A DNA stretch of 64,000 bases from Phycisphaerae bacterium (GTDB lineage Bacteria; Planctomycetota; Phycisphaerae; UBA1845; PWPN01), in assembly GCA_018003015.1 (NCBI GenBank), contig JAGNEZ010000011.1, positions 1 to 64,000 on the forward strand. Direction: 5' to 3'. This document shows positions 711-13,095 of the stretch, piece by piece; the first letter of the stretch is position 1; each line of letters opens with the position of its first letter. Below the pieces are notes generated by a model, which saw nothing but the letters and a program-made list of their open reading frames with translations, searched no databases and had not been told where the DNA came from. A program made the translations under genes and the position numbers.

Positions 711-2372
711 ATGGGAACCCTGGCGGTCGTTCCGATTTTCATGAGTGCTGGTGCCGCGGTCATGCCCGCGGTCGTTGCGGCGGTGACGAGCGTGGTGGCC
801 ATCGCGGTGAGGCCGCGTGAGTTGCTGCGGCTCTGTCGGCGGCGGCCGGCGGCCGTCGGGGCGTCGTTGGGTGTGATTGCGTTGGGGGTGGTGGCCGCCA
901 GCTGGTGGCGGACGTCCGACACGCGGGCTGCCACATCGGGGCGCGGGGAGACTCGGGCGGGGCATTATGACTGGGCCCGTGTTGCGGAGGACATCATCGC
1001 GAGGGAGGGCGCCGCCGGGGCACTCACGGCTCGCGCGGTCGCCGGGTCGCCGACGGCGGTTGCCGTCCAAGCAACGGGGGTTTCGCAAGGAGGGGGCGGC
1101 TCCTCGGTGGGTGCCGTTTCCCTGTCGAGCCATGGGAGCGCGGGTATTCCTCTGATTTTGGGGCGTGATGCCTCGCGATGCAGCTACGGGACGGGTCCGT
1201 CGCCTGTGCGGCTGAGCACGTTCTGGCGTTATGTGCCAGAGGAGACGATGTTCCTTTCCGCGCCCCTGGTGGTGGGCAATCGGGTCTTCACTGCCGGGTG
1301 CCAGAGTGACCTGGGCGGGTACACCGGTCTGCTCGCGTGCCTGGACGCCGAGACCGGCAAGCCGATCTGGGAGGTGACGCGGAAGGGCGATGACGTGTTG
1401 CGGCCGTTCTTCAGTTCGCCGGCATTGACTCAGGATGGCAGGTACCTGGTGATTGGGCAGGGTCTGCACGCGGATCGCGAGTGCTCGCTGCTTTGCTTTG
1501 AAGCTGTGACCGGGAAGCTCCACTGGGAAGTGAAGACCGCGCTTCACATTGAGTCTTCCCCCGCGATTCATGGTGACATGGCCGTGGTGGGAGCCGGGGC
1601 GATCGAGGGTCGTGACGGCCAGCCCACGGGTGACCCTGGTTTTGTGTTAGCGGTGCGTATCTCCGACGGCAGAGAGCTGTGGCGTCAAGTGGTCAACGAT
1701 CCCGAGAGTGCGCCGGCGATCGATGAGAACGGCGCGGTGTACATCGGGAGCGGATTCAACGGCTCGGCCGTGGTGGCGCTGCGTAGCGAGCCGGAGGAGC
1801 AGTTGCGGGCCGGCAAGTTTGATCGGATTCTGTGGCGTACGGCGGTTGCTCATCCGGTCGTGAGTGCCATTGCCCTGGCCGGCGACCTGGTGATTGCGGG
1901 CGGGGGCAACAGCGACGCGGTTCATTCGAACCGGAATGCGGAGGGCATGGTGGTTGCGTTGGACCGGAAGACGGGCCGGATTCGCTGGCAGACGTTGTTT
2001 GAGGACTCGGTACTGGGGGGTTCTGCCTGTCGTGAGGACCGGCTGGTGTGTCCGGTCCGTACAGGCGAGGTGGCGGCGCTGTCGCTGCAGGATGGTCGGG
2101 TTCTGTGGCGTACGGCGATCAGCAGGCAGGCCCCGGTGATTGCGGCGTGCGCGTTCACCGGGCAGCGGGTTTACGCGGTGAGCAGTGACGGATACCTGGC
2201 GGTTGTGGATTCCCAGGATGGGCAGGTTCTGGAGCGAGTCTACTTGAACGACCAGGCCAGACCGGGCACCGGCCTGGCGATGTGTTCGCCGCAGGTTTCC
2301 GGAGGGCGGGTGATTGCGGGAAGCGAGACTGGGGGGCTGCATTGCCTGGTTGGCTCGGAGGGCAATGAATGA
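711..2372 (+). CDS. membrane-anchored PQQ-like beta-propeller protein
   Basis: A 553-residue protein read from the ATG at 711; the frame is open back to 480, but the upstream codons look non-coding. Two hydrophobic segments (about residues 5-30 and 45-65) anchor it in the inner membrane. A BamB/PQQ-type propeller follows, visible as repeats ending in a Gly-x-x-x-Trp pattern: AETGKPIWEV, AVTGKLHWEV, ISDGRELWRQ, RKTGRIRWQT, LQDGRVLWRT and SQDGQVLERV. Such propellers usually serve as scaffolds for protein-protein contact; no PQQ-dehydrogenase catalytic residues are visible. The stop codon overlaps the next start as ATGA (2369-2372), so it is translationally coupled to the phosphotransferase-EMC3 fusion and probably works with it. 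The start is uncertain because the ribosome binding site is weak. Confidence 0.8.
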   Translation: MGTLAVVPIFMSAGAAVMPAVVAAVTSVVAIAVRPRELLRLCRRRPAAVGASLGVIALGVVAASWWRTSDTRAATSGRGETRAGHYDWARVAEDIIAREGAAGALTARAVAGSPTAVAVQATGVSQGGGGSSVGAVSLSSHGSAGIPLILGRDASRCSYGTGPSPVRLSTFWRYVPEETMFLSAPLVVGNRVFTAGCQSDLGGYTGLLACLDAETGKPIWEVTRKGDDVLRPFFSSPALTQDGRYLVIGQGLHADRECSLLCFEAVTGKLHWEVKTALHIESSPAIHGDMAVVGAGAIEGRDGQPTGDPGFVLAVRISDGRELWRQVVNDPESAPAIDENGAVYIGSGFNGSAVVALRSEPEEQLRAGKFDRILWRTAVAHPVVSAIALAGDLVIAGGGNSDAVHSNRNAEGMVVALDRKTGRIRWQTLFEDSVLGGSACREDRLVCPVRTGEVAALSLQDGRVLWRTAISRQAPVIAACAFTGQRVYAVSSDGYLAVVDSQDGQVLERVYLNDQARPGTGLAMCSPQVSGGRVIAGSETGGLHCLVGSEGNE

Positions 2373-5300
2373 ACTCGGCATCGGCCTACGTTGAGGACTT
2401 ATCCGAATGCCGCGACGCGTCGCAGGTGGGAGGCAAGGCGGCGAGTCTTGGTCGGCTGGTCCGAGCGGGGTTCCCGGTTCCCGGCGGGTTCGTCATCAAC
2501 ACCCGGGCGTTTGAGGTTGCCAGAGGCCGATCGCTGCCGGCGGGCGTGCCGGCCGGGTTGCCGGACGAGGTCGCGGAGGAGATACGACAGGGGTACCGGG
2601 GGATGGGTAGCGGGCTGGTGGCGGTCCGATCGTCGGCCACGGCGGAGGATACGCCGACCGCCTCCATGGCCGGGCAGTACGAGACCTTCCTGAACGTGGA
2701 GGGTGAGGCTCAACTACTCCAGGCGGTGCGGGAGTGCTGGGCGGGTCTGGATACTCCCCGGGTTCGGGCCTATCTATACGAGCAGGGTATCGATCCTGCG
2801 CACGTGTCGATGGCGATCATCGTTCAGCGTCTGATTCCCGCAGACGCGGCGGGGGTGCTTTTTACCGCCAATCCCCACTTTAACGGCAACCGCGAGATGC
2901 TGGTTGAGGCGAGCTGGGGGCTGGGCGAGTCGGTTGTTTCCGGACGGGTGCAGCCGGATGTTCTCCGACTGGAGTATGAATCGGGACATGTTCTGGGCGC
3001 GACGATTTCCGACAAACAGGTGTACCTTGCCGCCGGGGGGAGTGGCGAACAGCCGGTCGACGAGGCGCGGCGCAAGACGGCCTGCCTGAATGGGCGGGAC
3101 ATTCAGCGGCTGTGGCGGTTGGGCAGGCGTCTGGCGGAGCATCTTGGCTCGCCCCAGGATGTGGAATGGGCGATCCATGGTGGCGAGCTGTATGTGCTGC
3201 AGGCTCGCCCGATCACGACGCTGCGGGCTGCCGAGGGGCATGAAGCGGTGCTGATGGTGGTGCGTCAGCGGTTGAACCAGGAGCTGTCGGCGGGGCGTGG
3301 TCCGTGGGTGCTGCACAATCTGGCTGAGACGTTGCCCCATCCGACGCCGTTGACCTGGAGCGTCATCCGGCGATTCATGTCCGGGTCCGGCGGTTTTGGT
3401 GCCATGTACCGGCAGGCTGGCTTTCGGCCTTCGCCGGTCGTGGATCGCGAAGGGTTTCTGGAACTTATTGCCGGTCGAGTGTACATGGACGTATCGCGTG
3501 CCCCGGAGATGTTCTTTGAGGGGTTTCCTTTCGCATACGACCTGGAAGCGCTCCGCCGAAGCCCGGATGCATCGCAGACGCCGCCGACCTTGCCGCGAGG
3601 TTCGTTCTCATCACGTATGGTTGCCCGGCGGCGCCTGGCGGCGGTGCAGAGGAATCTGTATGCCCTGTCCGCGGATTTCGATCGTCAGCTTTGCCGCAAC
3701 ATGTGTCCGCGTCTGGCGTGCTATGTCGACCTGGCCAAGCAGATCGACTTGCGGCTGGTCTCCGCCGATCGTCTGATCGGTCTATGGCAGGAGCACGAGA
3801 GACAGGTTCTGGATACTTTCGGTCCGCACTCGCTGATGCCGAGTCTGATCTGCGAGATGGCCATGGCGGAGCTTCGGGAGTTTCTCCAGGAGTGCTTCTG
3901 GGAGGAGGACGCTGATGATCTGGCCGGGGTCATCTCGGCCGGTGGTTCGCTGAACCGGACGCTGACTGCTGACCTCGAGTTGTATGAAGTGGGGAGGGGT
4001 TTCCGCCCGTTGGAGAGGTGGATGGCTGATCACGGTCATCGGGCGGTAGGGGAATTCGATCTGGCGGCTCCGCGCCGGCGAGAGCAGCCGACGGCCGTCA
4101 GCGATCTGGCGGCCCGCTTGGCCGCCGGCGTTGGACCGCTGGATCGACACCGTCGCACCGTTGGGGAGGTGGAGTGCCGGATCGAGTCGCTCCGTGCCCG
4201 GCTGTCGGGCCGCGATCGCAGGGAGTTCGATCGTCGTCTGGATCTTGTCCGCCGGTACATGGCCTTTCGCGAGGACGGCAAGGATTTCCTGATGCTGGGC
4301 TACGATTTGCTGCGTGACCTGGCTCTCGAGGCGGGGCGACGGCTGAACGTCGGCGAGGATGTCTTTTACCTGACGCGGGAGGAGCTCTTCGACGCGCTGG
4401 GTGTCGGATCCGCACCGCGTCGAGTGATCGATCAACGGAAGGCCGAGTACGAGGCTGAGATCCGGATCGACCTGCCGCGGGTGATCGAGGGTGCGATGAT
4501 CGAGGTCCTGGGTGAGACGGCGGTAACGGAGGCGCACCCCGGCGGCTACCAGGCCTTTGGGATTTCGTCGGGCGAGGCTGTGGGGCCGGCGAGGATTCTC
4601 CAGTCGCCTGGGGAGAGGTCGGATCTCGGTCGCGGCTACGTCCTGGTTTGCCCGAGCACGGATCCGTCCTGGACGCCGCTGTTCATCAACGCCGCGGGAC
4701 TGGTGCTGGAACGTGGCGGCACCTTGTCGCACGGGGCGGTGGTGGCTCGTGAGATGGGGTTGCCGGCCGTTGTCCTGCCTGATGCCACGCGGTTGTTTGC
4801 GGAGGGCGAGGTACTTCGCGTGGACGGCCGCCGCGGGCGGGTTGTCCGGGAGGGGGAGACGCCGTCTGGGGTGTCGGTGTCGGCGAGCTGCGATTTGTCT
4901 GACGGTTCGGGCGGGTGCGATCGAGGGTCGCCCGGCCCGGACGACGTGTGCGTCTTGGCGGACGCGGTTCCGCCGCCGTCTGGCAGGAAGGACCGCAGGG
5001 CGGCGAGGATGCGAAACGTCCTGGCCCTCGCGTGGATGGTTTTTCTGCTGGGTTTTTTCCTTCTGCCCGAGGCCTGGGTTCATCAGCCATCGTTGGCGGC
5101 CATGGATTGGGTGTTGTGGCCGATTGTCCGGTCCTTGGGCAAGCCCGCGGTCGTGGTGGTGGTTGCTGTCGGCCTGGCGTTGCTGACGCTCCTACTCCAG
5201 AAGTATTTAACCGACAACGAACGTCTTTTGGAGGCAAAGCGTCGAGCCGCGGTTCTGAGGAGTCAGGCTGACGATCTGCCCGAGGGCTCGCCGAGGCGCC

Positions 5301-6100
5301 GAACACTGACCCGGTTGGCGGCGGGGGTCCAGTATCGCACGCTGACGGCCGCGCTGGTTCCGGTAGGCGTCTTGCTGGGCCCCATGGTCATGCCGTTCAT
5401 CTGGTTCAAGGATCGCGTGGATCCGGCGGCCGGCAATCCGCCAGCGGGTTCGCCGGTGCAGGTGGTTGCGATGGTTGACGGGGACTGGTTGGATCCGGTT
5501 CGGATCGAGACGCCGCCGGCGATTCAGGTGGACGACCGCACGCCGTCGACGCGGACTCTGCCGCCGCTGCGCGAGACGTTGGAGCGACTGCTGACCCTGT
5601 ACCGCCAGCGGCAGGATGAGTCCGCGGAGCCGTGGGAACTGAAGGTGGGGCCGGATGTAGCGCCTGCGCAGGCGGCCAAGGACCTGCAGGCTTATCTCGA
5701 GGCGGGCCTGCCGCCGCGAGGCATGACCTGGATGATTCGCCCGCCGGCGGACCTGGACGGTCGATTCCCGGTGACGGTGGCGACCGGGGGTCATCGTCCG
5801 GTGACGATCCACGCGGTGGTTGGCGACCGGTGTGCCCCCGCTCCCTCGCGGGTGACGGGTCACCGGGGCTCGCCGGTGCGGGAGCTGCGTGTGGTCTACC
5901 CGCGGTCCAAGCAAGCGCCCTGTTTCTGGCGGCCTTTCGCGGCGTTTGGGTCTCGGTCGCGGGATGCTGCCGTGGCGGGTGAGGGCAGCCGGGCGGTTGT
6001 CGGGAGGCTGGCGGCGGTCGACGTTGGTTGGCTATGGTTGTACATCATGGTCTATCTGCCGACGTTGCTGACGGCTCGGGGGGTGATGAAGGTCGCGTGA
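2369..6100 (+). CDS. PEP-synthase/rifampicin-phosphotransferase-like enzyme fused to an EMC3/DUF106-like membrane domain
   Basis: 1243 residues. Residues 1-290 form the PEP/pyruvate-binding ATP-grasp domain (VGGKAASLGRLVRAGFPVP near residue 20; RSSATAEDTPTASMAGQYET). A central helical domain covers about 300-700. The phosphohistidine domain carries GGTLSHGAVVAREMG with the catalytic His near residue 788. The PEP-binding TIM barrel of true PEP synthase is missing, so the order matches rifampicin phosphotransferase. From about residue 875 the protein becomes a membrane protein: hydrophobic segments near 880-900, 915-940 and 990-1015, the second followed by a charged helix (LTDNERLLEAKRRAAVLRSQ). 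After a polar insert of about 190 residues comes a last segment, GWLWLYIMVYLPTLLTARGV. That pattern is typical of DUF106/EMC3/TMCO1 proteins, which are distant YidC/Oxa1 relatives. The fold calls are firm; substrate and physiological role are unknown. Confidence 0.82.
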   Translation: MNSASAYVEDLSECRDASQVGGKAASLGRLVRAGFPVPGGFVINTRAFEVARGRSLPAGVPAGLPDEVAEEIRQGYRGMGSGLVAVRSSATAEDTPTASMAGQYETFLNVEGEAQLLQAVRECWAGLDTPRVRAYLYEQGIDPAHVSMAIIVQRLIPADAAGVLFTANPHFNGNREMLVEASWGLGESVVSGRVQPDVLRLEYESGHVLGATISDKQVYLAAGGSGEQPVDEARRKTACLNGRDIQRLWRLGRRLAEHLGSPQDVEWAIHGGELYVLQARPITTLRAAEGHEAVLMVVRQRLNQELSAGRGPWVLHNLAETLPHPTPLTWSVIRRFMSGSGGFGAMYRQAGFRPSPVVDREGFLELIAGRVYMDVSRAPEMFFEGFPFAYDLEALRRSPDASQTPPTLPRGSFSSRMVARRRLAAVQRNLYALSADFDRQLCRNMCPRLACYVDLAKQIDLRLVSADRLIGLWQEHERQVLDTFGPHSLMPSLICEMAMAELREFLQECFWEEDADDLAGVISAGGSLNRTLTADLELYEVGRGFRPLERWMADHGHRAVGEFDLAAPRRREQPTAVSDLAARLAAGVGPLDRHRRTVGEVECRIESLRARLSGRDRREFDRRLDLVRRYMAFREDGKDFLMLGYDLLRDLALEAGRRLNVGEDVFYLTREELFDALGVGSAPRRVIDQRKAEYEAEIRIDLPRVIEGAMIEVLGETAVTEAHPGGYQAFGISSGEAVGPARILQSPGERSDLGRGYVLVCPSTDPSWTPLFINAAGLVLERGGTLSHGAVVAREMGLPAVVLPDATRLFAEGEVLRVDGRRGRVVREGETPSGVSVSASCDLSDGSGGCDRGSPGPDDVCVLADAVPPPSGRKDRRAARMRNVLALAWMVFLLGFFLLPEAWVHQPSLAAMDWVLWPIVRSLGKPAVVVVVAVGLALLTLLLQKYLTDNERLLEAKRRAAVLRSQADDLPEGSPRRRTLTRLAAGVQYRTLTAALVPVGVLLGPMVMPFIWFKDRVDPAAGNPPAGSPVQVVAMVDGDWLDPVRIETPPAIQVDDRTPSTRTLPPLRETLERLLTLYRQRQDESAEPWELKVGPDVAPAQAAKDLQAYLEAGLPPRGMTWMIRPPADLDGRFPVTVATGGHRPVTIHAVVGDRCAPAPSRVTGHRGSPVRELRVVYPRSKQAPCFWRPFAAFGSRSRDAAVAGEGSRAVVGRLAAVDVGWLWLYIMVYLPTLLTARGVMKVA

Positions 6101-6175
6101 TGGCGGGTCATGGCGGCCCCGAGGCGGTACACTGGTGTTCGAACGGATACGGATGATGCTGTTGAGGGGTGTCCG

Positions 6176-6829
6176 ATGAGGCTGCTGGTGATTGAGGACG
6201 AGCCGGATCTGCTGGAGGTGTTGGCTCAATCGCTCCGCGAGGCCGGATATGCGGTGGACGAGGCGTCCGACGGGCCGACCGGTTTGTACAAGGCGGCGGG
6301 CGCGGACTACGATGCGGTCGTTCTCGATCTGATGTTGCCGGGCATGAGCGGGTGGGATCTGCTCCGTGAACTGAGGAAGACGAAGGCAACGCCGGTTCTC
6401 ATTCTGACCGCACGCGATACTATCCCCGATCGAGTGAAGGGTCTCGATGCCGGGGGCGATGACTACCTGACCAAGCCGTTCGAGTTGCCGGAGCTGCAGG
6501 CTCGGCTGCGGGCTCTGATTCGCCGATCGGCGGGTCAGGCCAAGGCCACGCTCGAGGTAGACGACGTCGAGATTGACACGGCCGAGCGTACCGTGCGCAA
6601 GGCGGGGCAGCCGGTTGCTCTCACGCCGAGGGAGTATGCCCTTGTCGAGTTGCTTGCCCTGCACAAAGGGAAGCTGGTGACCCGGACGATGATCTACGAT
6701 CATCTGTTCGACGAGGCCGACGACAGCCTGTCGAACCTGGTGGATGTTCACGTTGCCAACGTCCGGAAGAAGCTGGGCAAGGATTTCATCCTGACCCGGC
6801 GCGGCGAGGGGTACCAGGTCCATGGCTGA
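6176..6829 (+). CDS. OmpR/PhoB-family response regulator
   Basis: 217 residues starting at the ATG at 6176, preceded by GAGGGG at 6163-6168; an earlier in-frame ATG at 6110 lacks a site. The receiver domain has the acidic pair EDE (residues 7-9), the phosphoacceptor Asp51 in VVLDLMLPG, the Thr of LILTARD and the Lys of LTKPFE. The C-terminal half is a winged-helix DNA-binding domain (LTPREYALVELLALH, then DVHVANVRKKLG and a closing TRRGEGYQV wing). The stop overlaps the start of the adjacent sensor kinase by 8 nt, so the two form a two-component pair. It sits 75 nt after the phosphotransferase fusion and may be cotranscribed with it. Confidence 0.95.
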   Translation: MRLLVIEDEPDLLEVLAQSLREAGYAVDEASDGPTGLYKAAGADYDAVVLDLMLPGMSGWDLLRELRKTKATPVLILTARDTIPDRVKGLDAGGDDYLTKPFELPELQARLRALIRRSAGQAKATLEVDDVEIDTAERTVRKAGQPVALTPREYALVELLALHKGKLVTRTMIYDHLFDEADDSLSNLVDVHVANVRKKLGKDFILTRRGEGYQVHG

Positions 6830-8495
6830 GAGCCGGTTGCCAGATCGGGGTTGCCCGCTTGCCGCACCGCGTGGTCAGGGCTCTTTGGGAGTTGGTTTCA
6901 AGTCGATTCGCTGGACGCTGCAACTGTGGCATGCCGGTCTGCTCGCGGTGGTGCTGATGGCGTTTGGCTCGATGTCGTACGTGGGCATTAGTCGGATGCG
7001 GTACCAGGAGGTGGACACCGATTTAGAGCGATCGGTGCAGGGGCTGGTGGTGGGTTTCCGACCGAAGATGCCGGGGCGGCCACCTAGCGAAGTGCCGTCG
7101 GGTGGTTCTCCGATGGACCCAGGTCCGAGCTGGCCGGATGGTGATGCTGGGCCGAAGCCGGAGCCGCCTGACTGGCGTGGCCCGGGCCCGTTGGACCGAT
7201 CGGTGGGCCGGCCGCCGGACGGGCCGCGTGGCCGGGAGCGGTCGTTTCCGCCCTGGCTGGAGTTCGAAGTGCCCGTGGAACTGGATCGACGGGCGGCGAC
7301 CGGCGAGCTCTACTACGTGATCTGGGGTTTCGATGGTCGTGTGCTCAAGTCCTCGGCGAGCGCCGGGGAAGTTCCTGATCCCGGTTCGACGTTGTCGGGT
7401 CCTCCGAAGCCGGAGCCGCCGCAGATACGTCAGCGAGGTGAGGTGCGAGAAGCTTACGTTTTTGGGCCATTTGGTTTGCGTGGCCTGGTTGGTCGTTCGA
7501 TGCGTCCGGATCAAGCGGCCCTGCACCGGCTGGCGTTTCTGCTGGTCGCGGTTGGGGCCGGTGTCCTGGTGATCGGCCTGGCGGGTGGGTGGCTCGTATC
7601 CTTGCGAGCGGTTCGGCCGATCGAAGCGATCACGGCGGTGGCTCAGGAGATCTCGGCCTCGAATCTGTCCAGGCGGATCGATCTGGCCGGGACCCAGAGC
7701 GAGCTGGGGACGCTGGCGGCCGTATTGAATGACACCTTCGCTCGGCTGGAAGCGGCGTTCCAGCAGCAGGTTCGATTCACCGCGGACGCATCGCACGAGT
7801 TGCGTACTCCGTTGGCGGTGATTCACACCCACGCCCAACTGGCCTTGTCGCGGCAGCGATCGGCGGAGGAGTATCGTCGGATGTTCGAGACGTGCCTGAG
7901 AGCCTCCGACCGGATGAAGAATCTGGTGGACTCGCTGCTTCTGTTGGCTCGGGCGGATGCCGGTCGGCTCTCGCTCAACCGTACCGAGCTGGACCTGCGT
8001 GATATCGTCGAGGAGTGTGTCGAGATGGTGTTTCCCCTGGCTGCCAAGAAAGGGGTGACGGTAGAATTGGATCTGGAGTCTGTGGCGCTGCTCGCGGACG
8101 GGACCCGGGTTGCCCAGGTAGCGACCAACCTGTTGACCAACGCGATTCGCTACAACCGCGAGGGGGGGCGGGTGCAGGTCCGCGTTGGTACCAGTGGCAC
8201 TGATGCGGTGCTCAGCGTCACGGATACGGGGGTGGGCATTCCGGCCGAGAGCCAGGCGCACCTGTTCGAGCGGTTTTACCGGGTGGATGCGGCCCGCAAC
8301 CGGGAGGAGGGGGGCAGTGGTCTGGGCCTAGCGATCTGCAAGAGCATTGCCGAGGCTCACGGGGGCACGATCACCTTTCGCAGCGAGGCGGGCAAGGGAG
8401 CGGTTTTCCTGGTACGGCTGCCCCGGAAGGGGGCGGAAGGCGGATGTCCTGCGGACTCCCTTTCGACGGAAAACGGTCCGCCGGCATGTGGGTAG
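6822..8495 (+). CDS. membrane sensor histidine kinase, partner of the preceding regulator
   Basis: 557 residues. TM1 lies near residues 31-52 and TM2 near 235-260, enclosing a periplasmic sensor region rich in Pro and Gly (about 75-145). A HAMP segment follows TM2. The dimerisation domain carries the H-box FTADASHELRTPLAV with His325. The ATPase domain shows the N box (NLLTNAIRYN), the G1 box VTDTGVGIP, FERFYRVDAARN and the G2 box GGSGLGLAICKS. All catalytic motifs are present, in the EnvZ/PhoR-like layout expected for an OmpR-type partner. The ATG at 6822 overlaps the regulator's stop codon. The input signal is not evident. Confidence 0.95.
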   Translation: MAESRLPDRGCPLAAPRGQGSLGVGFKSIRWTLQLWHAGLLAVVLMAFGSMSYVGISRMRYQEVDTDLERSVQGLVVGFRPKMPGRPPSEVPSGGSPMDPGPSWPDGDAGPKPEPPDWRGPGPLDRSVGRPPDGPRGRERSFPPWLEFEVPVELDRRAATGELYYVIWGFDGRVLKSSASAGEVPDPGSTLSGPPKPEPPQIRQRGEVREAYVFGPFGLRGLVGRSMRPDQAALHRLAFLLVAVGAGVLVIGLAGGWLVSLRAVRPIEAITAVAQEISASNLSRRIDLAGTQSELGTLAAVLNDTFARLEAAFQQQVRFTADASHELRTPLAVIHTHAQLALSRQRSAEEYRRMFETCLRASDRMKNLVDSLLLLARADAGRLSLNRTELDLRDIVEECVEMVFPLAAKKGVTVELDLESVALLADGTRVAQVATNLLTNAIRYNREGGRVQVRVGTSGTDAVLSVTDTGVGIPAESQAHLFERFYRVDAARNREEGGSGLGLAICKSIAEAHGGTITFRSEAGKGAVFLVRLPRKGAEGGCPADSLSTENGPPACG

Positions 8496-8567: not shown

Positions 8568-8735
8568 GAGGGTGATGTCTGATCTTGGATTTTGCCCCTC
8601 GGTTGCCGATGGTGAAGGGTCAGTCACGGGGCGGTTGGCCTGGCCGGCTGCCAGGCTGGTTTTGGTGAGAGGGCGGCGGCTCGCGTGGCGTTCGATGAGG
8701 GCCATGGTCTGCCTGATCACGAAAGGAGAAGGCCG

Positions 8736-9320
8736 ATGTTGAGTCGAAAATGGTTGTTGGCGATTCCGGTGGGAGCGTTGATGGTTTTCTCGTTGGCTCT
8801 GGCCCAGGATCCCGGGCGAGGTGGCCCTGGTCCTGGTGCTGGAGCGGCTCCCGGTCCGGGTCAGCCGCCGGCTTTCGGGGGTTTTGATCCTGCGCAGTGG
8901 CGTGAGCGGATGTCGAAGATGATGCAGGACCAGCTGGGGGCCAGCGACGACGAGTGGAAAGTGTTGTATCCCAAGATTGAGAAGGTTCAGACGACCCAGC
9001 GAGAGTCTTTTGGTGGTTTTGGGATGATGGGTTTCGGTCGCCGTCCTGGCGGCGGCCCAGGCGGCCCTGGTGGGGGCCCCGGTGGGCCTGGTGGCATGGG
9101 CAACCAGCAGCTCAGCAAGGTGGCCCAGGCTCAGACAGACCTGCGGGCCCTGCTGGACAAGAAGGATGCCGGCGCGACGGACATTGCCGGCAAGCTGGCC
9201 GCCTATCGCGAAGCCCGCGAGAAGGCTCGCACGGAAGTACAAGCCGCCCAGAAGAGCCTGAAGGAGCTTGTGACGCAGCGTCAGGAAGCCGTTCTCGTGC
9301 TGATGGGCGTTCTGGAGTAA
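8736..9320 (+). CDS. secreted glycine-rich protein, Spy/CpxP-like (paralogue 1)
   Basis: 194 residues from the ATG at 8736, with a strong site (AAAGGAG) just before it. Residues 1-24 form a signal peptide (LLAIPVGALMVFSLALAQ). A short Gly/Pro tract follows, then a helical block with 'QLGASDDEWKVLYPKIEKVQ', a GGPGGGPGGPGG tract, and a second helical block ending VTQRQEAVLVLMGVLE. The paired helices and the closing LTxxQ-like motif recall Spy/CpxP periplasmic chaperones; this is inference from pattern. The protein at 10099-11136 has the same layout, with matching helices around a much longer glycine tract. The two flank a sigma-factor gene. Confidence 0.7.
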   Translation: MLSRKWLLAIPVGALMVFSLALAQDPGRGGPGPGAGAAPGPGQPPAFGGFDPAQWRERMSKMMQDQLGASDDEWKVLYPKIEKVQTTQRESFGGFGMMGFGRRPGGGPGGPGGGPGGPGGMGNQQLSKVAQAQTDLRALLDKKDAGATDIAGKLAAYREAREKARTEVQAAQKSLKELVTQRQEAVLVLMGVLE

Positions 9321-9416
9321 GCCGACGTTCGGCGGGGTGGTTTGAAGGCAAGCCGCGTTCCGGAGCGCGGCTTGGGGAGTGTGGGGTGTGCGCCGCTTGT
9401 CTTGCGAGACGGGTTG

Positions 9417-9998
9417 ATGGCTGACTGGGCCGACACAACACGCATGCTTGGTCGAGGCGGGCGAGCGACGATTCGCGCTCTGATCGAGTTTCACGCCGAC
9501 TATCTGTTTGGCATCGCCCGGGCGTTAGCCGTTGATGCCGCGGATGCTGAGGAGCTGGTGCGGGGGGCGCTGGCCTGTTGCCTGGAAAGCGGTTTTCGCC
9601 CGGGGGTTGCGATTCGGACATCGCTGCTGGCCGCGCTGGTGCGTGAGGCGTGCGGGACTCGCCCGGCTCCATCGCGTTGCATATCGTCAACCGGTCTGGC
9701 GAAGGGGGTGACCCGTGTTCCCGTGGGTCAGGCCGCGGAGTGTGCCGGGACCGTCGTTGCCGAGTCTCGGCCGGGTTTGTCGGCGGTCCTTCGTGACCTG
9801 GCGATGGAGCATCGCATCGTCGTTGTTCTGCGGGAGCTGGCAGGGATGACGTACGAGGAGATGGCCTGCACCCTGCAGGTTCCGCAGGCGACCGTGGAGG
9901 TCCGTCTTCGTGAAGCCCGAGAGGCGTTATCGAAGCGGGTGCTCGCCGCTTTGAGGGATCTTCCCGCCGGTCGAAGGCCTGTCTTCACGCCACCTTAA
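9417..9998 (+). CDS. ECF-like RNA polymerase sigma factor
   Basis: 193 residues from the ATG at 9417 (upstream in-frame codons to 9342 look non-coding). Region 2 is recognisable as LIEFHADYLFGIARALAVDAADAEELV, the helix that in ECF sigmas reads ...A.DLVQ. Region 4 is clear: LRDLAMEHRIVVVLRELAGM followed by the helix-turn-helix TYEEMACTLQVPQATVEVRL. The linker between them is long, and region 2 lacks the conserved Asp-Leu-Val-Gln block, so it is divergent. No anti-sigma factor gene is adjacent. It lies between two paralogous secreted proteins, which are candidates for its regulon or for sensing its signal. Confidence 0.8.
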   Translation: MADWADTTRMLGRGGRATIRALIEFHADYLFGIARALAVDAADAEELVRGALACCLESGFRPGVAIRTSLLAALVREACGTRPAPSRCISSTGLAKGVTRVPVGQAAECAGTVVAESRPGLSAVLRDLAMEHRIVVVLRELAGMTYEEMACTLQVPQATVEVRLREAREALSKRVLAALRDLPAGRRPVFTPP

Positions 9999-10098
9999 GG
10001 TTCACCCGGCTATGTTGAGTCATGTCAGGATCGGATCCGCCCGCGTCACTTCGGAGATGAGGGTGACGGGCGGGAGAGCCTGCCGAGAGGGTCGAGTC

Positions 10099-11136
10099 TT
10101 GTTCCAGAGCAGCACAGGGTTTTTAGGTATCGTCATGGTGCTGGGGGTCCCGATTGTTGGCGTTGCCCAGGCGCCGCGGAGCAACACAGGGGTGCCGGGG
10201 TCGCAGCCCGCGCCTGATCGCGGGCCGTTTGGGGGTGGTTTCTTGCCCTTCTTCCCGGGCTTCGGGGAGGTGATGGCGTTTGGGGAGATCAAGACGCAGA
10301 TACGAGCTTCGGACGAGGAGTGGAGAGTGATTGGCCCCAAGCTGCGGCGGGTGATGTCCGCGCGACAGGCGACGGAGGCGATGCTGCTGCCAGCGGGCCC
10401 GGACGAGAGTAGTGGCCTGTTGGGTGGCCCGATGGGCCGAGGGGGGCGGGGTGGTGGCGGTTTTGGCCCGCCGGGTGGGCCGGGTTTCGGTGACGACAGC
10501 AGCTTTCAGGGTCCTGGCGGTTTCGGTCCGGGGGGTCCTGGTGGTCCCGGTGGTCCTGGTGGCCGTGGGCCTGGCGGTCGTGGTTCTGGGGGTTTTGGAC
10601 CGGGAGGTCCGGGGCCTGGTGGTTTCGGGCCTCCGGGCGGATTTGGCCCGCCTGGTGGTTTTGGGCCTCCGGGCGTTTTTGGTCCGCCTGATGGTTTTGG
10701 GCCTGCGGCTGGTTTCGCTCCGGGCGGTCGCGGTCCAGGCGGTTTTGGCCCGCCGGAGGAGCGAGGTCGGGGTGATGCGGCGGCGACACAACCCGGAGCC
10801 GCGAGCCAACCGGCGTTCGGCGGTCGTGGCGGTCGCGGCTTTGGTCGGTTTGGCCCGGGCGGTGGTCCCGGGGGTGGCGGACCGGGTGGGCCGCCGGGCG
10901 GCGGACCTCCGGGCTTCGGTGCGCGCAACATGGTGGTGATGCAGGCCCTGTTCGAACTGCAGACGGTGCTGGCGGACTCGAAGTCGACTGCGGAGCAGGT
11001 CGAGGAGAAGGTAACGGCTGTTCGCGAGGCCCGCCGCAAGGCTCGGCTTGAGCTGGAGGAGGCGGAGAAGGACCTTTTTCTGCTGCTGACTCTTGATCAA
11101 GTGGCAGTGCTGACGGAGCAGGGTTACCTGGACTGA
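10099..11136 (+). CDS. secreted glycine-rich protein, Spy/CpxP-like (paralogue 2)
   Basis: The start chosen is the TTG at 10099: it has GAGAGG 8 nt upstream and gives a normal signal peptide (GFLGIVMVLGVPIVGVAQA). ATG codons at 10012 and 10057 would add a long unlikely leader and lack good sites. A helical block (TQIRASDEEWRVIGPKLRRV) is followed by about 180 residues of GPGG, GFGPPGG and similar units, then a second helical block (LQTVLADSKSTAEQVEEK) ending LLTLDQVAVLTEQGYLD, where LTxxQ resembles the Spy/CpxP motif. It is clearly paralogous to the protein at 8736-9320. The function is probably envelope-related but unproven. Confidence 0.7.
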   Translation: MFQSSTGFLGIVMVLGVPIVGVAQAPRSNTGVPGSQPAPDRGPFGGGFLPFFPGFGEVMAFGEIKTQIRASDEEWRVIGPKLRRVMSARQATEAMLLPAGPDESSGLLGGPMGRGGRGGGGFGPPGGPGFGDDSSFQGPGGFGPGGPGGPGGPGGRGPGGRGSGGFGPGGPGPGGFGPPGGFGPPGGFGPPGVFGPPDGFGPAAGFAPGGRGPGGFGPPEERGRGDAAATQPGAASQPAFGGRGGRGFGRFGPGGGPGGGGPGGPPGGGPPGFGARNMVVMQALFELQTVLADSKSTAEQVEEKVTAVREARRKARLELEEAEKDLFLLLTLDQVAVLTEQGYLD

Positions 11137-11196
11137 TGGCGTACCCGGGGTGGCGCTGGATGCCGGTCGGCTGCCGTGTTCTTTGGAGTGTTCGCG

Positions 11197-13095
11197 ATGT
11201 GGTGCATGAAACGCACGTTCCTGAAGGGCTCGTTTGTGGTTCTGCCGTTCCTGCTTCTGTGTCTGGCGATGCCGGTGCAGGGATACGTGGATCTGGCCCC
11301 CACGCTTTCGAAGGTGGTCGGCGATTCGAAGCAGATTGCGGTGGTAGAGGTTGTCGGGTTCCATCGCGAGAAGCGCACGGTGACATTGAAACCGGTGCGC
11401 AAGCTGAAGGGGGATGCGATCGCCGGGGTGGTCAAGCATGAGGTGGCCGTTTCCCAAGGCGCAGCCATTCCGCGGCATATCATGCAGTGGGCGGATCCCG
11501 GTTCTCAGGCCGTTCTGTTCGTGTCCCGCAACACCGGGCTGGTCTGCGTCGGCCAGGGGTGGTATCAGGTTCGGTTGGCTGGAACGGATGCATGGAAACT
11601 GGGAGTCGAGCGACCGGATCTGCCGTTGGCCTATTATGGTCCGGTGTCCCGCCTGGCTGACGGCATCGAGAGCATGCTTGCCGGCAAGGATGCGGTGCTT
11701 TCGACGGTGGCCCACGGTGCTGACGAGATTGCGGCCAGTTTTGACTTGGCGCTCAACCGTGCCAGCCTGCCGGGACTGGTCAAGGTCGAGCGCATCCGGG
11801 CGAATCTGAAGATGCCGCCGATGGTGTTGGCCGCCTCGGCCAATCCTGCCTATCTGATTGGGCAGGGGCCGGTGGACGAAGCGGATCTGCCGGCGCTGAT
11901 GGAGAAGCTCAAAGCGGCCGACGCCGTGGTGCGGGCCGACTCGGCCGACGATCTCGGGTGGTTGGCCGCCAAGGCTGCCACGGCGGAGAAACCGCTGACG
12001 GCTCTGCTGGCGGATTCTGCGTCGCGTGTACGGGTATCGGCGGCGACGGCGCTGCTGCGTATTGTCCCGAAGAATGCGGACGCCCTGGTCGTCCTGAGGC
12101 AAGCGTTGGTGAGCTCCGACCACGCCACGCGTCTCCAGGCGGTGAAGGGCGTTGGCCTGGTGGGTTCAGCGGCCGCTCCCCTCATTGATGTGTTGGGCGG
12201 CTTGCTGAAAGAGGGAGACGAACCGACGCGGATTGCGGCTCTTCAGGCCATCTCGATGCTGGGCCCGGTGGCGGCGGCTCAAGTTGGGGTGGTCACCCGC
12301 CTGCTGGACGACCCGGAGTTGATGATTGATGCCGCGGACGCGCTGGGCCGGATCGGTGCCGCGGCTCGCCCGTCGCTCAGGCGCCTGGCTCAGATGCTGA
12401 CCAGCGATCAACCGGCGGTTCAGTGGGCGGCTGTGCGGGCGATGTCGCAGATCGGCGGCGAGGAGGCTCATCCGGCCGTCGACTTCATGGTCAAGAAGTT
12501 GCCCAGTGCGACCGAGGTAGAAGGCTACAACATGATGATCTACCTGGCTCTGCTGGGGCCGGTGGCCAAGGATGCGATTCCGACGATTCGCAGCGTTCGG
12601 ATCAAGAATCCGGTGCTCCCGTCGGCGACCTGCTGGGCGATCGAGTCGGACAGGAGTTTCCCATGGTTGGGCGGGGGGCGTGGTGGTCCCGGCGGCCCGG
12701 GCGGTCCTCCGGGCATGGGTGGTGGCGGAGGAGGGCCTGACTTTGCGGTTTACATCTACGAAGCCTACGTGGTCGAACTGGGTGATCGGCTTCGTCCGGC
12801 GGCCCGGCTGCTTGCCCAGAAGATCGCGGACGGGACGGCGGGGGACATTCCCGACTGGGGATACAAGATCCTGTCCTGCGGCCGGGACGAAGCTCTTGGC
12901 GTTTTCCTTCCGCTGCTGTCCGACCGCGACAAGGTGATGCGTGAGCGTGCGGTGGTGGCTCTGGGTTTTATGGGTCCATCGGCCGATGCTGCCCGAAGCC
13001 AGGTTGAGGCTGCCCTGCAGGGGGTGTCGAGCGAACGGGAGAAGAGGCTGATTGAGTGGTGTCTCCGGGAGCTGGCCCACGGCCCGCGCGGCTAG
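11197..13095 (+). CDS. secreted HEAT-repeat protein with a glycine-rich insert
   Basis: 632 residues from the ATG at 11197 (TTTGGAG about 9 nt upstream; a GTG at 11176 and an ATG at 11206 are alternatives). A signal peptide (FVVLPFLLLCLAMPVQG) is followed by an N-terminal beta-rich region of about 150 residues. From about residue 240 there are helical HEAT/PBS-lyase-type repeats such as DSASRVRVSAATALLRIVPK, ATRLQAVKGVGLVGSAAAPL and EPTRIAALQAISMLGPVAAA. Near residue 490 the repeats are broken by a GGPGGPGG-type glycine tract like those in the two secreted paralogues upstream; helical repeats resume after it. It is probably a protein-binding scaffold outside the cytoplasm. Confidence 0.8.
   Translation: MWCMKRTFLKGSFVVLPFLLLCLAMPVQGYVDLAPTLSKVVGDSKQIAVVEVVGFHREKRTVTLKPVRKLKGDAIAGVVKHEVAVSQGAAIPRHIMQWADPGSQAVLFVSRNTGLVCVGQGWYQVRLAGTDAWKLGVERPDLPLAYYGPVSRLADGIESMLAGKDAVLSTVAHGADEIAASFDLALNRASLPGLVKVERIRANLKMPPMVLAASANPAYLIGQGPVDEADLPALMEKLKAADAVVRADSADDLGWLAAKAATAEKPLTALLADSASRVRVSAATALLRIVPKNADALVVLRQALVSSDHATRLQAVKGVGLVGSAAAPLIDVLGGLLKEGDEPTRIAALQAISMLGPVAAAQVGVVTRLLDDPELMIDAADALGRIGAAARPSLRRLAQMLTSDQPAVQWAAVRAMSQIGGEEAHPAVDFMVKKLPSATEVEGYNMMIYLALLGPVAKDAIPTIRSVRIKNPVLPSATCWAIESDRSFPWLGGGRGGPGGPGGPPGMGGGGGGPDFAVYIYEAYVVELGDRLRPAARLLAQKIADGTAGDIPDWGYKILSCGRDEALGVFLPLLSDRDKVMRERAVVALGFMGPSADAARSQVEAALQGVSSEREKRLIEWCLRELAHGPRG

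Follow-up and report, generated by a model that had tools for sequence, protein, structure and literature searches.

A single gene in the 64,000-nucleotide stretch of Phycisphaerae DNA analyzed here (the window) joins an enzyme resembling rifampicin phosphotransferase (RPH) to a membrane domain that profile comparison and structure prediction relate remotely to archaeal MJ0480/DUF106, EMC3, and TMCO1. The gene, which we call D, occupies positions 2369 to 6100 of the forward strand, as do all parts of D described below, and encodes 1243 amino acids from an ATG start with no internal stops. The fusion is real and conserved, and a beta-propeller gene, here C, lies directly upstream of it in nearly all loci. 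Each half is of a known kind; what is apparently undescribed is their combination, its occurrence in bacteria, and the accompanying propeller gene. The initial annotation could name no obvious precedent, and the open-access papers searched yielded no description of such a fusion or of a bacterial PF01956 protein.

Conservation of the fusion across genomes

That the frame encodes one protein, as first proposed from the window alone, is borne out by comparison with other genomes. Enzyme and membrane parts stand in a single frame in 30 of the 32 loci examined, the window included, the other two being L042, where the contig end precedes the enzyme part, and a natural variant, L065, which is considered below. 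The 29 fusion loci outside the window belong to Planctomycetota and Verrucomicrobiota, with identity down to about 40%, and genome searches recovered full-length relatives at 91, 61, 59, and 45% identity, each on an independent contig. Among partly overlapping draws of genomes, the C-terminal domain was found in 5 of 294 planctomycete genomes, strong matches to it occurred in 17 of 248 genomes of the same class (one of the 17 being a single-contig genome of 7.2 Mb with a frame of 1271 codons), and the phylum of the verrucomicrobial relative, represented by 388 genomes, contained the complete form in 8 and the variant form in 1. The query in most of these searches was the membrane domain, and the counts thus cover proteins that carry it. 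Some genomes carry two or three copies of the fusion.

As the same fusion was found again on independent contigs and in further genomes, an assembly error is excluded, and with it a frameshift, a chimera, or two separate genes. All frames under 1100 codons other than that of variant L065 run into a contig end (L028, L042, L082, and L083). Locus L028 (1-5924) is a 5.9-kb scaffold binned as Streptosporangiaceae with a planctomycete-like copy of the fusion; its project prefix, RYN, is shared with L025, and it is probably a mis-binned planctomycete, so that it was not counted as a third phylum.

The enzyme half

The first part of D follows the domain order of RPH. An ATP-grasp domain (residues about 1-290; 2369..3238), assigned from PPDK_N at 8.6e-76 and an alignment to RPH 5hv2, precedes a helical acceptor domain (residues about 291-733; 3239..4567), supported by conservation and by a middle-domain profile that matches RPH with an E value of 7.7e-14. 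A phosphohistidine swivel domain (residues about 734-830; 4568..4858) comes next, matching PEP-utilizers at 2.1e-21 in Pfam, and its LSHGAVVARE motif contains His788 (4730-4732). Listeria RPH is the closest solved relative of this half both by sequence and by predicted structure; a full-length model of the relative L060 (pLDDT 85.8) aligns with it over 719 residues with a Z score of 33.5 and an rmsd of 7.5, a high value that is expected because the domains move in this kind of protein. Within a viral structure library, the sole matches were to ATP-grasp/PEP-utilizer proteins.

The residues on which RPH chemistry depends, assigned to the first and second phosphotransfer by mutagenesis (PMC4844700), recur in D. 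In the alignment to 5hv2, K23, R87, and T106 correspond to K22, R117, and T136 of RPH, while R634, E635, and K638 correspond to the acceptor-site Arg/Glu/Lys and His788 to the catalytic His825. Except in variant L065, the residues of all three sites (ATP, histidine, and acceptor) are conserved across the relatives: K23 in 27/27 sequences, R87 in 28/28, T106 in 24/27, His788 in all 30 sequences having the swivel domain, and R634 and E635 in 30/31. On the evidence of these residues, the domain order, and the models, the enzyme half is RPH-like, in accordance with its first description as a rifampicin-phosphotransferase-like enzyme. It falls far below the equivalog cut-off of the NCBIfam model for rifamycin-inactivating RPH, NF041857 (374 bits against 999), and its substrate is therefore probably something other than rifampin.

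Comparison with known enzymes places D within familiar chemistry and an unfamiliar architecture. It shares domain order and the residues of all three sites with RPH (5hv1/5fbs; PMC4844700) and the dikinase superfamily, but about 410 residues extend beyond its histidine domain, whereas the histidine motif of RPH lies at most 50 residues from the C terminus (PMC12167813). Similarly, HpeHI and phenylphosphate synthase combine an ATP-grasp with acceptor/histidine modules for two-step chemistry (PMC12167813), but they are soluble two-component enzymes in which a membrane domain is absent. From the conserved sites we infer a phosphotransfer activity in which the cytosolic ATP-grasp domain would pass the beta-phosphate of ATP to His788, the swivel domain would bring it to the helical acceptor domain, whose Arg/Glu/Lys site would hand it to a hydroxyl-bearing substrate, with release of AMP and Pi.

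The membrane half

An AlphaFold model of the C-terminal part (pLDDT 83.6) begins with two helices, the second of them short, continues through H1, a hairpin, and H4, and reaches H5 after a beta domain. The first is an extra transmembrane helix, H0-like and also indicated by hydropathy (residues about 873-898; 4985..5062). After it, model, profile, and conservation together define a short EH1-like helix (905-923) and the core helix H1 (925-947, with the invariant Q944; the two spanning 5081..5209), then the cytosolic helical hairpin H2/H3 (950-995; 5216..5353), which is preceded by a T-D-N-x-R-L-x-E-A motif and contains the invariant R990. Core helix H4 (997-1016; 5357..5416), placed from the model and conservation, has conserved P998, G1004, W1012, and R1016. 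Between H4 and H5 lies an Ig/Fn3-like domain (residues about 1023-1178; 5435..5902), predicted to be extracytoplasmic and recognized from the model and from structural matches (Z 6-7 over about 75-100 residues). The last core helix, H5 (1220-1240; 6026..6088), supported by model, profile, and conservation, reads G-W-x-x-x-Y-x-x-x-Y-x-P. The Ig-like insert of about 155 residues ahead of H5, the additional helix at the start, and the upstream partner gene are features beyond those initially annotated.

Kinship of this domain with DUF106/EMC3 proteins, proposed at the outset, is supported by profiles and modeling, but membership of the curated family is not. Against PF01956 (EMC3_TMCO1), D scores 11.5 to 14.8 bits, under the Pfam cut-off of 27.1, and for this reason we speak of a remote relative rather than a member; even so weak a match is the only one to PF01956 in the whole 6.9-Mb genome. 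PF01956 is also the commonest Pfam match among members of the family (6/20, the best at 8.8e-4). When the whole PDB was searched with a profile of the C-terminal family, MJ0480, a YidC-like protein of archaea, ranked first, with an E value of 2.1e-7 from 12 sequences and 9.2e-9 from 20; the match covers H1, the hairpin, and H4 and reaches weakly into H5 (G-W...Y). By structure, the top VIA-align match of the model is 7tut_8, a multipass-translocon chain 177 residues long that is probably TMCO1, judged by its size and source (rmsd 3.9 over 140 residues, model positions 64-386; Z 7.5, which the tool rates as middling). The matches ranked below it (Z 7.1 and less) cover the beta domain only and match Ig/Fn3-like modules, a common arrangement. 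A Foldseek search with the C-terminal model returned nothing useful, its best matches being beta and coiled-coil proteins with E values from 0.036.

It could be argued that the likeness is a chance product of coiled coil and helices and that the domain is a membrane anchor of other ancestry, as might be suspected from the single-sequence Pfam score, the middling structural Z score, and the identity of the PDB runner-up, a designed coiled coil (E 0.022). We regard this as very improbable, given that six orders of magnitude separate that E value from the one for MJ0480, that the match spans H1, the hairpin, and H4 and reaches weakly into H5 with its G-W...Y, and that a second method independently ranks a chain of a TMCO1-containing translocon first.

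MJ0480/DUF106 (PF01956, arCOG02673) shares with D H1, a cytosolic hairpin after an L-L-x-D-x-x-R motif, H4, and weakly the G-W...Y of H5, but D is bacterial, is fused behind an enzyme, has the extra first helix, and carries its Ig-like domain in the loop between H4 and H5. EMC3 and TMCO1, which with archaeal proteins make up PF01956 as described (PMC8675477), have the same three-helix core and hairpin, whereas D is bacterial and has a covalently attached phosphotransferase, and no EMC6/OPTI-like partner was identified for it. Bacterial YidC (PF02096) is alike in its core at the superfamily level; its profile has no match in D, and the only match in the genome is at G000:C23:84799-85461. If the superfamily topology (PMC8675477) is applied to D, the hairpin and the enzyme would be cytosolic and the beta domain outside, and the extra first helix fits this arrangement because it would cross the membrane from the enzyme on the cytosolic side to the point outside where H1 starts.

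It is conceivable that such a domain is an anchor or scaffold and nothing else, having lost any role in insertion or transport and merely tying a phosphotransferase for soluble substrates to the membrane and to C. Consistent with this, the EMC3-like homologue occurs solely as the fusion in the genomes searched, the large Ig-like insert splits H4 from H5, an ordinary YidC is present elsewhere in the genome, and the Arg-Pro of archaeal H4 is replaced in D: MJ0480 has the Arg adjacent to the proline (...FRP...), and the invariant R990, considered as the positive charge of the groove, sits 8 residues ahead of the H4 proline. The absence of that Arg from the aligned place also counts against the substrate-handling role that we favor below. 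An anchoring role alone nevertheless seems less likely to us than that role, though likelier than the other alternatives: Q944 at the cytosolic end of H1, R990 at the cytosolic end of H4, and the G-W of H5 are invariant, the divergent L065 being no exception, a constraint beyond the needs of a plain anchor.

Variant L065 (4469-6934), not previously noted, still lies beside C and has kept the membrane core with its Ig-like insert as well as the helical domain, and it is without the ATP-grasp and histidine domains; the Arg/Glu/Lys site of its helical domain is also gone. The three losses together suggest that the catalytic parts work as one unit elsewhere, and retention of the rest suggests a separate function for it, for example in assembling with C or in binding a ligand. 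That the helical and membrane parts persist here without phosphotransfer is at the same time a point against a function centered on phosphorylation of a membrane substrate.

The propeller partner and its neighborhood

The second new element, gene C (711..2372, forward strand), encodes two N-terminal transmembrane helices followed by a PQQ/BamB-type beta-propeller (PQQ_2 2.4e-35). Its likely start is ATG 711 (MGTLAVVPIFMSAGAAV), placed by alignment with L024 and others; a start at GTG 480, in the ORF stretch 480-714, was considered and set aside in favor of ATG 711, as the close relative L024 has a stop just before it. The stop of C and the start of D overlap by 4 bases as ATGA in the window and in most loci. 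Of the 27 loci with room for C, 26 have it directly upstream of the fusion; the sole exception, L092, has a SpoIID-domain gene instead (L092 6729-8012).

Other genes recur less regularly. A secreted FG-GAP protein with a conserved INPALQPD N-terminal stretch (B) stands beside the C/D pair in many loci, and in some another secreted protein, A, with a domain of the chitobiase C-terminal type, is nearby, as at L061 1517-5164, L062, L060, L058, L038, and L041. Neither was detected in the window, where a HEAT-repeat gene (11176-13095) that resembles B by eye was rejected as its counterpart when the B profile gave no match. Because C accompanies D in nearly all loci, and A and B do so in fewer, C and D are taken as the core pair. 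Immediately after D, the window encodes an OmpR-type response regulator and a HAMP histidine kinase (6110-8495), a pair also present at the relative L026 and missing from most other loci. Farther on are two Gly/Pro-rich proteins with no Pfam match (8685-9320 and 10012-11136) and, between them, a gene for a sigma-70-like factor (9342-9998). A PEP-CTERM-like tail (VPEPATLSLFGIGGLGAWLARRKQQ) was seen near the cassette at L058 13609-13977.

A propeller partner invites comparison with the EMC, which includes a propeller subunit, EMC1. It could be speculated that cytosolic phosphohistidine cycling drives or gates protein insertion, with C as an EMC1-like outer propeller; energy-coupled insertion was one of two functions suggested initially, the other being phosphorylation of a membrane substrate. 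Besides the fold kinship with MJ0480, EMC3, and TMCO1 and the presence of a propeller at nearly all loci, the EMC1 N-terminal propeller profile does match C weakly (2.4e-4 and 0.0022), and further secreted proteins often adjoin the pair. The generic PQQ matches of C are, however, far stronger than those to EMC1, its two N-terminal helices give no Pfam match to EMC6, superfamily members are not known to need a phosphoryl donor, and the RPH-type acceptor residues point toward a small-molecule acceptor. We therefore consider a coupled insertase improbable, and we would give equally little weight to the wider idea of a bacterial EMC-like machine in which an EMC3-type groove and an outer propeller serve insertion or lipid/polymer transport driven or gated by phosphohistidine chemistry. 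Judged from sequence, phosphorylation of a membrane substrate would fit the conserved acceptor site better than energy-coupled insertion does.

Proposed function

Our preferred reading, put forward tentatively, is that D is a membrane-bound RPH-type phosphotransferase with an insertase-like domain that presents or moves the substrate and serves as the docking site for C, the propeller protein. Sequence and structure prediction provide the domain order, the catalytic residues, the membrane fold, the conserved fusion, and the conserved partner gene. Building on the topology outlined above, the C-terminal Oxa1-superfamily core (H1, the H2/H3 hairpin, H4, and H5) would tether the enzyme to the cytoplasmic membrane on its inner face; on the outer side, the Ig-like insert would assemble with the propeller of C, a complex that we likewise infer. 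As to the class of substrate and its movement, our guess is that the core may present or move a small molecule, most likely one that is membrane embedded or membrane delivered. Set against this proposal, in addition to the points raised by H4 and by L065, RPH relatives of known function use soluble small molecules (PMC4844700, PMC12167813), and locus L092 has no upstream C to be docked.

A more specific version would make D a kinase of lipids, phosphorylating a lipid alcohol or glycolipid of the inner leaflet, with the groove passing the product outward to be received by C. Oxa1-superfamily insertases can scramble lipids (PMC10491306), which makes such readings reasonable in general terms rather than for D in particular, and a complete acceptor site does stand beside a membrane domain with relatives of this ability. 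The conserved neighbors nevertheless include no lipid-binding or lipid-modifying gene, and as a purely inferential scheme the combination of lipid kinase and flippase appears to us a long shot.

In conclusion, the fusion unites two ancient and well-studied kinds of protein, one an enzyme with a swivelling phosphohistidine domain and the other a membrane core of the EMC3/TMCO1 type. It places a relative of the archaeal/eukaryotic type within the Oxa1 superfamily in bacteria, where it has a propeller partner and coexists with an ordinary YidC. If the enzyme does feed the groove, this would be the first direct coupling of phosphoryl transfer to this membrane fold, and if the EMC-like machine were true, it would represent a new way to couple ATP to an Oxa1-superfamily protein. 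D offers a single-chain system in which the coupling of phosphoryl transfer to an EMC3/TMCO1-type fold can be tested.
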